Assembly: GCA_029059705.1 (NCBI GenBank)
Contig: JAIDVM010000010.1
Location: 1 to 64,000 of the forward strand
Length of the DNA stretch: 64,000 bases
Reading direction: 5' to 3'
Source of the DNA: Clostridia bacterium
GTDB taxonomy: Bacteria; Bacillota; Clostridia; Christensenellales; Borkfalkiaceae
Numbering within the stretch: the stretch's first letter is position 1; every line of letters starts with the position of its first letter. This document shows, piece after piece, positions 38,993 through 40,562 of the stretch. A program made the position numbers and the translations under genes. Under the pieces are notes generated by a model that saw nothing but the letters and a program-made list of their open reading frames with translations, ran no database searches and was not told where the DNA came from.

Positions 38993-39691
38993 TTATTGAT
39001 TATCCGAACTGTAAACGAGCACGTGATTTGCCGTTGGCGCGGGTGCAACCGTCGTGCCATAATCGTAAAATCTGAATTCGGTTGTTAAATCCGAGCCGTC
39101 TTGTCCCATTACAAATCTGTTTAACAATGCATTGTCGCCGTTTCCGTTGAAATAGCATTTAAGCCAGGCGCCGTCTTCGGGCTGCGCTAAATAACAGTTA
39201 TCCTCCGCATTGTAAGTAAATTCCATTTCCTTTATAATGTCAAGGTGGGCGGTGGCGGAAATATAAATTGCTGAAAGTTCGGCAAACGAAGTTATTTTTT
39301 TGCCCGCAATTTGTTCGCACATATCGGTTACGGAGTTTGTCGTTGTATAAGGCGGTTGTTCGGACGGTGACGGTACTTCGTACTCTTTAATAACGAAACT
39401 TTCTCCGTCGCCCTCTGCTACGACCGTATAATCCTCGCTCGTGTTCATAAACATTCTTTTGTTTGCGCCGTCCACAAAAATAGTGTTGTCAACGGGGTAG
39501 AGCGAAAAAGTTACGTTTTCGGCGTTTATCGTGTTGTCAAACGCCTTTTTAATCTGTTCCTTCGTCAGCTCTACGGCTACGGGCGGTTCGGGTGTTGGTG
39601 TGGGTACGTTTCCGCCTCCGCACGCCGCAAAGGCGAGTGAGAGCGCGAGTGCTGCGGAAATTGCCGCAAGTGTTGCAAAAAATTTTTTCAT
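38993..39691 (-). CDS. Small lipoprotein of unknown function
   Basis: A 232-residue secreted lipoprotein. The signal peptide MKKFFATLAAISAALALS leads to a lipobox-like AFAAC near residue 24, followed by a Pro/Thr linker (VPTPTPEPP). The mature part is beta-rich, resembling small lipoproteins of unknown role. GGAGG fixes ATG 39691; the longer frame lacks a site. The promoter is probably the one at 39967-39995, whose transcript meets the structured RNA and terminator (39731-39759) before this gene, so read-through may control expression. Confidence 0.7.
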   Translation of the reverse strand: MKKFFATLAAISAALALSLAFAACGGGNVPTPTPEPPVAVELTKEQIKKAFDNTINAENVTFSLYPVDNTIFVDGANKRMFMNTSEDYTVVAEGDGESFVIKEYEVPSPSEQPPYTTTNSVTDMCEQIAGKKITSFAELSAIYISATAHLDIIKEMEFTYNAEDNCYLAQPEDGAWLKCYFNGNGDNALLNRFVMGQDGSDLTTEFRFYDYGTTVAPAPTANHVLVYSSDNQ

Positions 39692-39730
39692 GGGTTCCTC
39701 CAATAGTTTTATTCGGGGATATTTTTGCGC

Positions 39731-39759
39731 AAAAAAAATGCGCCTCATCAAGAGACGCA
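39731..39759 (-). terminator. Terminator at the end of the structured RNA
   Basis: On the minus strand: TGCGTCTC, loop TTGAT, GAGGCGCA, then eight T. It lies 40 nt before the lipoprotein start. Confidence 0.88.
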
Positions 39760-39961
39760 CCCCGTTAAAGCTATCTCCCGAGAGTCGCTAAACAAAATCT
39801 ATGGGAAAATCCGCGCAAACAAATTGCCGAAATACCAAGATACCGGAAGAATAGCCGTTCGGCTGATTGATAGTATCCTGCTAATCAACAATATTATGCA
39901 TGCGCGAAAAAATCCGCATAAAAAAACGCAGACTTCAACCCATATTCGATTTTGTTTAGCG
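39731..39961 (-). ncRNA. Structured RNA of unknown class, or long structured 5' leader
   Basis: A minus-strand transcript of about 230 nt. Closing stem: 39948-39961 with 39786-39799 (14 bp, perfect), extended by 39939-39944 with 39800-39805 (6 bp) after a 3-nt bulge. Inner stem 39901-39907 with 39811-39817 (7 bp). Hairpins at 39867-39888 and 39853-39864. The loop sequence at 39873-39879 can pair with 39837-39843 (7 bp), a possible pseudoknot. Terminator TGCGTCTC/GAGGCGCA plus eight T ends it (39759-39731). No T-box or familiar riboswitch signature was recognised; raiA and 6S RNA were not excluded. Confidence 0.65.
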
Positions 39962-39966
39962 TTTAA

Positions 39967-39995
39967 ATTTTATCACACCGCAACGCAAATTGCAA
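39967..39995 (-). promoter_or_regulatory. Promoter of the structured RNA
   Basis: On the minus strand: TTGCAA, 17-nt spacer, TAAAAT. The expected start, near 39960, coincides with the first base of the closing stem. Confidence 0.75.
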
Positions 39996-40064: not shown

Positions 40065-40562
40065 ATGATTATTCTGGGTTTAGACCCCGGGCTTGCGACA
40101 ATGGGCTACGGCGTGGTTGAAAAACTTAAAAACGACAATACGGTCGCCGTAGATTACGGCGTGGTGCTCACGCCGAAGGAAGAGAGCCTCCCCGTGCGGC
40201 TTGCCATGCTCGAAGAGGGCGTGAACAAAATTCTTCAAAAGTACAAACCCGAAGAAATAGCGATGGAAGAGCTGTTCTTTTCAAAGAATATAACGACGGG
40301 CATACCCGTTGCGCATGCAAGGGGGGTTATGCTGTTGACGTGCATAAAATATTGCGGCAGACTTTTCGAATACACCCCAAACCAGATAAAGCAGTCTTTA
40401 ACGGGCTACGGCAAAGCGGACAAAATCCAGATGCAGCACGTGGTAACCTCGCTTTTGGGGCTTAAAAAAATTCCCCGCCCCGACGACGCCGCCGACGCGC
40501 TCGCGGTTGCGCTCTGCCACGCGCACACTTCAAGGTTCGGCAAACTTTTCAATATAAAATAA
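40065..40562 (+). CDS. ruvC: Holliday junction resolvase RuvC
   Basis: Nuclease that cuts Holliday junctions during recombination. At 165 residues it has the usual length. Acidic catalytic residues appear in LGLDPGLATMGYG (N-terminus), AMEELFF (near 68) and RPDDAADALAVA (near 140). ATG 40065 is chosen since the family begins MIILGLDPG and the promoter ends 7 nt upstream; no Shine-Dalgarno exists. It heads a ruvC-ruvA-ruvB-queA-tgt cluster. Confidence 0.95.
   Translation: MIILGLDPGLATMGYGVVEKLKNDNTVAVDYGVVLTPKEESLPVRLAMLEEGVNKILQKYKPEEIAMEELFFSKNITTGIPVAHARGVMLLTCIKYCGRLFEYTPNQIKQSLTGYGKADKIQMQHVVTSLLGLKKIPRPDDAADALAVALCHAHTSRFGKLFNIK

Follow-up and report, generated by a model that had tools for sequence, protein, structure and literature searches.

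The nearest counterparts, in plan, of the RNA described here are the terminator-controlling leaders of the Bacillota (purine, TPP and T-box), which likewise combine a 5′ leader with an intrinsic terminator and a gene just downstream on the same strand, and in which one strand likewise pairs with either the sensor domain or the terminator. The RNA and its relatives differ from these leaders in that transcription would start on the first base of the closing stem, P1, and that the switching would be done by another strand, a tail segment that we call T; this segment is located 3′ of P1, resembles the 5′ strand of an apical hairpin and would contact that hairpin as a pseudoknot. In comparison with known aptamers, no conserved residues were recognised in the family, which also has no Rfam match. 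The c-di-GMP riboswitches (GEMM-I and GEMM-II) precede genes for surface and secreted proteins, occur in several copies per genome and are terminator-based; in contrast to them, the family is without an Rfam match and is found in this and other element-rich genomes that have no GGDEF domains. 6S RNA is also a long, rod-like RNA with a closing stem, but neither the strict conservation of the P1 sequence nor the T strand nor the occurrence in many copies is a feature of 6S. The raiA motif (ModT) is a conserved structured RNA of about 200 nt found in Bacillota (PMC11706538), a description that fits the family as well; unlike raiA, the family gives no match to RF03072, precedes surface-protein genes and has many copies. 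Finally, surveys of candidate structured RNAs, from human microbiomes (PMC8040213) and from 26 and 50 bacterial genomes (PMC8632094, PMC11109978), describe computational leader-type motifs of a comparable kind. Their main texts mention no motif before lipoproteins or leucine-rich repeat proteins, and an unnamed entry for part of the family in their supplementary tables is possible. Among main texts open without subscription, no description of the family was found. The RNA apparently belongs to a widespread, undescribed family of transcription-attenuating leader RNAs; on the comparative sequence evidence set out below, we consider it probable that it is the 5′ leader of a lipoprotein gene and one of a new family of leaders that attenuate transcription in cis (candidate orphan riboswitches).

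The locus is on the minus strand of a 64,000-nucleotide stretch of the genome of a Clostridia bacterium (the window). The –35 box TTGCAA (39990–39995) is separated by a 17-nt spacer from the –10 hexamer TAAAAT (39967–39972), which is part of an extended –10, TGA-TAAAAT (39967–39975); this is the promoter that a preliminary description of the DNA had named. That description set the start of transcription on the first base of a long stem, at 39961. The arrangement of promoter and stem holds, but the first base is better taken to be G39960, because the –10 of the family sits at a fixed offset before that G; 6 nt separate it from the end of TGA-TAAAAT, so that the extended –10 is followed by a predicted +1 on the first base of P1, as elsewhere in the family. 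The 5′ strand of P1, GCUAAACAAAAUC (39948–39960), pairs with the 3′ strand, GAUUUUGUUUAGC (39787–39799), over 13 bp, or over the 14 bp originally reported if C39961–G39786 is counted. The 6-bp extension of this stem was likewise recovered in the minimum-energy fold, in which UAUGGG (39939–39944) pairs with 39800–39805.

The internal hairpins of the preliminary description were also found. In the minimum-energy fold, the apical hairpin (39837–39879) is formed by AGGAUAC (39873–39879) with GUAUCUU (39837–39843), and its 7-bp stem closes an inner hairpin, GCCGAACGGC (39854–39863). This 7-bp pairing had been proposed as a pseudoknot; it exists, but it is nested in the apical hairpin, and the co-evolving long-range contact is instead that of the tail strand (39770–39779) with the 3′ side of the apical hairpin (39845–39855). 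The strand in question, T, is UCGGGAGAUAGC (39770–39781), and its apical partner, T′, is GCUAUUCUUCC (39845–39855). A second complementarity of T, of which the earlier reading had taken no account, joins 39774–39781 to an 8-nt target, UCUCUUGA (39748–39755), inside the terminator. The latter is the intrinsic terminator GUGCGUCUC-UUGAU-GAGGCGCAU followed by a U run (39731–39760 in all; stem 39752–39760 with 39738–39746, U run 39731–39738). It closes the RNA shortly before the lipoprotein gene, as had been noted: the ATG at 39691 is 39 nt past the terminator end at 39731. The gene (38993–39691, minus strand; MKKFFATLAAISAALALSLAFAACGGG...) has a Shine–Dalgarno sequence at 39696–39703 and encodes a lipobox-bearing protein of 232 aa that matched nothing in Pfam. 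An ORF with a GTG start that runs through the terminator into the lipoprotein is taken as chance, its frame not being kept in two relatives (G010, G004). On the other side, the divergent upstream neighbour is ruvC (40065–40562, plus strand; MIILGLDPGLATMGYGVVEK...), which lies outside the switch.

Two further elements of the locus deserve mention. A terminator-like, U-rich hairpin within the RNA, AAGUCUGCGUUUUUUUAUGCGGAUUUUUU (39907–39935), is predicted to form ahead of a U6 run. With these uridines it lies some 25–54 nt after the predicted start; it is visible in close relatives too, and is confined to the subtype to which the window belongs. If it served as a terminator, it could yield a transcript of about 55 nt. 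The terminator proper may also be enclosed by an outer stem, CGGGG (39760–39764) with CCCCG (39714–39718), spanning 39714–39764. Visual inspection showed similar enclosing complements in a number of relatives (UGCAGGGC/GCCCUGCA, GCGGGC/GCCCGC, CGGGGGU/ACCCCCG), and they stop just 5′ of the ribosome-binding site in the window and in L060, L049, L112, L113 and L043; a second layer of control on mRNA stability or translation is possible.

Folding of the 240-nt minus-strand RNA gave –94.1 kcal/mol, a stability that no dinucleotide shuffle out of 200 equalled (z = –8.7). The structure is assigned to this strand because the fold of the opposite strand is weaker (–62.0 kcal/mol, z = –4.8, for a stretch five bases longer).

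The preliminary description had allowed that the RNA might be one already known from clostridia, with raiA and 6S as examples, and had proposed a search with the Rfam covariance models. That search, made with Rfam 15 at the gathering cut-off over the whole window, returned tRNAs only; up to E = 10 there was nothing credible at the locus, and up to E = 2 nothing relevant in 16 relatives spanning the three subtypes of the family. Identity with 6S can be rejected, as the locus has no match to RF00013 and the true 6S gene of this genome is on another contig (C21, 58.4 bits). Identity with raiA is rejected on the lack of an RF03072 match at the locus or in the relatives; a raiA search of six element-bearing genomes also found no match, although its control likewise matched nowhere. 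The c-di-GMP riboswitches are rejected in the same way, neither the locus nor the relatives matching the Rfam c-di-GMP models. It is true that diverged members of a class can escape Rfam models and that c-di-GMP riboswitches, too, precede surface-protein genes, and so the RNA might be an overlooked relative of raiA, 6S, a c-di-GMP riboswitch or some other catalogued class; with no credible match at these thresholds, the 6S gene accounted for and GGDEF proteins missing from seven of 16 element-bearing genomes, we regard this as very unlikely.

Relatives of the RNA were found in several ways. By DNA search, three further genomes of the genus proved to have homologues, and a search with the terminator pattern added four more; the DNA matches L005–L007, and a weak match in this genome (C3:26624), are not family members. 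Model R1, a covariance model built on the 3′ portion (seven rows, including the window RNA), had matches at E ≤ 0.01 in 42 of the 93 genomes from the genus and, within the order, in 65 of 297, the weaker matches not all being verified, and the flanks of the matches had the same architecture despite very different sequences. A search with an exact pattern that spans P1 and the tail found at least 120 DNA stretches, and the titles listed are almost all of uncultured gut Clostridia. Among the 128 distinct matches listed in these and in five viral stretches, 114 have an upstream P1 partner, a few of these being chance, and 14 do not, some because of contig ends and some as chance matches. The matches L135, L217, L235 and L237–L239 are chance occurrences in other sequence, and L207, which has no P1 partner, looks like another. 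One complete-looking element is at the end of a contig filed as viral (IMGVR_UViG_3300011008_000947; L236), which could be the edge of a prophage or a bacterial contig filed in error. A broader model (R2; 20 rows) matched in 98 of 391 Clostridia genomes, or about a quarter, at E ≤ 1e-3, and finds the window RNA at 3.6e-14, a value to be read with the window sequence being among the rows of R1 and R2. In a phylum-wide sample of 398 genomes at E ≤ 1e-5, a single borderline match outside the class (G1053) was obtained besides this genome, and it reads as unrelated sequence; the other Bacillota sampled gave no verified element. It should be noted that the sampled genomes are mostly metagenome-assembled.

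There are up to 17 copies of the element per genome. This genome has three: that of the window, one at C9:97900–97961 (L255) before a membrane protein gene, and one at C5:2031–2095 (L261) before a lipoprotein with collagen-like GEQGEKG repeats. Tandem pairs a few hundred bases apart, each member with its own promoter and terminator, were seen in L181, L186, L194 and L231, and further pairs in G642 (C2:15469 and 15681) and G622 (C35:4244 and 4455); tandem elements also occur in some known riboswitches. Such multiplicity, together with the inverted repeats (9–18 bp) that border the P1 domain, could be taken to mean that P1 is the inverted repeat of an inverton or a miniature transposon placed before surface genes. 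Variable surface genes do adjoin the elements, and gut bacteria often switch such genes by inversion; invertons near surface genes have been described (PMC11892184). The element of the window is, however, present in only one copy at the DNA level in its genome, which speaks against a transposon or repeat; the promoter is outside the repeats, so that inversion would not switch it; the conserved unit goes past the repeats, from the promoter through T and the terminator; and the interiors are strongly diverged with their pairing kept, the transcribed strand folding the better. We consider a mobile or recombination element extremely improbable.

About 160 elements share the extended –10, P1 from +1, the apical hairpin, the tail strand T and the intrinsic terminator. 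In the 111 non-redundant elements, TATAAT was matched in at least four of six positions at a fixed offset before P1 in 95, the TG of the extended –10 was present in 88, and a –35 matching in at least four of six positions at a spacing of 16–18 nt was present in 84. Because P1 was located without reference to the promoter, the position of the latter is independent support for +1 on the first base of P1. Within P1, G+1 and C+2 are almost invariant; pair 3 may be C–G, U–A, G–C or A–U, pair 5 is A–U or C–G, and pairs 10–12 vary with pairing kept. The window carries the family pattern of GCnAnACAAn, its complement and then an RRC-rich T, in the form GCUAAACAAAAUC / GAUUUUGUUUAGC-GAC. T itself is typically RRCAAUCGGAG followed by AUAC, UUUGCG or AUAGC. 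P1 encloses an interior domain with the apical hairpin, and it is on this domain that three subtypes can be distinguished: a short one (A), a long one (B) and that of the window, which has the extra U-rich hairpin. In four elements (L039, L004, L040, L047) the P1 5′ strand motif UAAACAAAAUC, or a close variant, recurs directly 5′ of the Shine–Dalgarno sequence, past the terminator, and the 3′ strand of P1 could pair with this copy as well.

A test of covariation in relatives had also been proposed at the outset. The consensus folds of four sequences aligned with MAFFT showed almost no covariation, the alignment being wrong inside P1. Covariation of P1 and the terminator was scored on an alignment of 23 sequences, in which 96.7% of the cells are paired, a figure that for P1 is partly circular because P1 was picked by complementarity; the variety of its pair types is free of this circularity. 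Thirteen of the 20 pairs have changed on both sides. The covariation score of 0.49 compares with 0.22 in shuffled alignments (none of 500 reached it) and with at most 0.15 in slid controls. In the terminator stem, all eight pairs have undergone two-sided changes among the relatives.

T is complementary to two sites, the 3′ strand of the apical hairpin and the terminator, through overlapping bases. Its first half pairs with the 5′ strand and loop of the terminator (CAAUCGGAG/CUUCGGUUG, CAAGCGAGAG/CUCUUGCUUG and CAUUGGGAGA/UUUCUUAAUG are examples), and its second half, which resembles the apical hairpin's own 5′ strand, pairs with the apical 3′ strand (GAGAUAC/GUAUCUC, GGCGGU/ACCGCC and, at up to 15 bp, GGAGUUUGCGUUUUU/AAAAACGCAAAUUCC). 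Both complementarities are present in the window RNA, where T–T′ amounts to 10 bp with one bulge (39845–39855); its T does not have the CAA carried by most relatives, which leaves 8 bp with the terminator (39748–39755). Matched changes of T and T′ are seen in relatives (GCUA/UAGC, GCAA/UUGC, ACUA/UAGU).

That both pairings have co-evolved was examined by an alignment-free test, in which the duplex energy of T with its own partner is compared with that for partners exchanged among elements; 112 elements were used after a redundancy cut at 80% similarity, and the partner in the case of T′ was allowed to be anywhere inside P1. The energy of T with its own interior was –15.2 against –12.6 on exchange (z = –12.8, n = 112), and with its own terminator –18.5 against –14.6 (z = –15.8, n = 112), the permutations lessening, though not removing, the effect of shared ancestry. 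With only the 20 strongly diverged elements the values were z = –4.6 for the interior and –7.4 for the terminator. Controls with reversed T and with P1 strands, in which relatedness is kept and no pairing is expected, gave z = –1.6, –1.7 and –1.0. The terminator signal is held by T 1–12 (z = –7.3) and the interior signal by T 7–20 (z = –6.1), there being none for T 1–9 with the interior (–0.6); since T 1–12 and T 7–20 overlap, the partners compete for the middle of T. In type B alone the T:terminator signal is weak (z = –4.3) because the terminator loop is nearly invariant there. Mean energies are –16.7 kcal/mol for T:interior, –18.5 for T:terminator and –15.3 for the terminator hairpin, a spread of about 3 kcal/mol. 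At 240 nt the window RNA is predicted to end in the terminator fold, and in T:terminator pairing once a few 3′ bases are added past the U run. The RNA has the mutually exclusive, co-evolving pairings expected of a riboswitch.

The genes that follow the elements bear on whether the RNA acts in cis. An ORF on the same strand, with a Shine–Dalgarno sequence, begins 53–233 nt after P1 (mostly 63–90) in 136 of 161 elements; the other 25 have no qualifying gene within 260 nt, some being at a contig end, and in some tandems the first element is not directly before an ORF. The window RNA has the leader position expected of a riboswitch, with a terminator and, 39 nt after it, the ATG of a same-strand gene. 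By a crude motif, a lipobox is present in 33% of the downstream proteins that are 100 aa or longer, whereas the neighbouring ORFs on the same DNA stretches, taken as background, have one in 5.1% of cases (p = 1.5e-14). Pfam assigned BspA-type leucine-rich repeats to 28 of 113 downstream products, and zinc ribbons, bacterial Ig domains and further surface repeats to others; apart from the zinc ribbons and surface repeats, scans with Pfam, PHROG and PADLOC pointed to no common function among these 113 proteins. In one relative (G004; L002) the RNA still adjoins ruvC, yet a different gene follows. In L039, L040, L041 and L004 the RNA precedes members of a family of long coiled-coil membrane proteins (M..L..LYALRAGLS...) with no confident Pfam match. 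We read the family as a shared signal that would control surface proteins, which are too varied to indicate one ligand.

The preliminary description saw in the locus an independent unit of about 230 nt. It does have its own promoter and terminator, but a transcript of that length is most readily explained as what a leader yields when transcription terminates early. The alternative is a free-standing non-coding RNA acting in trans, either an sRNA or a structural RNA like raiA/ModT or 6S, for which the downstream gene would be a bystander and the terminator would just end the RNA. Essentially every element has a promoter and a terminator of its own, the U runs of the terminators look strong, tandem copies occur, and the P1 sequence is conserved beyond the needs of pairing, as if for a bound partner. 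All of this would suit an RNA acting in trans; against it stand the near-constant distance to a same-strand gene, with one functional class strongly enriched, the presence in one genome of several diverged copies that each precede a different gene, and the compensatory change that keeps the T:terminator pairing, which would weaken termination. A trans-acting RNA is for these reasons unlikely in our judgement. The riboswitch-like leader that the preliminary description had offered among its options is, in contrast, supported by the covarying stems, the co-evolving terminator/antiterminator pair and the placing of the gene.

From sequence comparison, the mechanism is likely to be that of a transcription attenuator. 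Transcription would start at the first base of P1, and the P1-enclosed domain, T and the terminator would be synthesised in that order, T being one strand with two mutually exclusive partners. In the off state, T would pair with T′ as a pseudoknot, displacing the apical hairpin's own 5′ strand; with T so held, the terminator would be free to fold and a transcript of some 230 nt would result. In the on state, T′ would be occupied or hidden, T would instead bind the terminator across its loop and 5′ half, and the terminator thus blocked would allow the surface-protein gene to be transcribed. We infer that the two states exchange in the cell, in this direction, and that an effector sets the balance between them.

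The effector would most likely be a small molecule or an ion that binds the domain inside P1, with a protein or an RNA as possible alternatives. Candidate sites for binding are P1, whose sequence is stricter than base-pairing requires, and the apical hairpin of type B, which is conserved. No GGDEF proteins are found in this genome or in six of 15 other element-bearing genomes, one of these six with 17 copies of the element; because seven of the 16 genomes tested are without GGDEF, c-di-GMP is unlikely as the common ligand. It may be that the attenuator is run not by a small molecule but by translation of a leader peptide or by a protein or RNA factor acting on T. The terminator/antiterminator anatomy alone names no effector, and the conserved P1 sequence (GCnAnACAA) would suit a protein. 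Leader ORFs with a Shine–Dalgarno sequence are, however, under-represented: they occur in 16 of the 112 elements, whereas shuffled leaders give 25.8 ± 3.8, and this count speaks against a leader-peptide attenuator. No accompanying regulator gene was noticed in an unsystematic look. Control by a peptide or factor is in sum possible, if rather doubtful. That the family is a new class of riboswitch of gut Clostridia, sensing a small molecule, moving T between pseudoknot and antiterminator, and governing a regulon of lipoproteins and BspA-type proteins, is a more specific proposal, on which we would put its being right and its being wrong at about the same weight.

Should the proposed switch operate in this way, a single RNA family would govern many surface and secreted proteins in uncultured gut Clostridia. 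The regulated set would include BspA-like leucine-rich repeat proteins, which are thought to touch the host or neighbouring cells, and the RNA would offer a direct handle on the signal that those bacteria read before they change their surface. Ligand screening could draw on well over a hundred sequences of this new candidate for an orphan riboswitch. Its existence also shows that Rfam still lacks a large, covarying RNA family of common gut bacteria.
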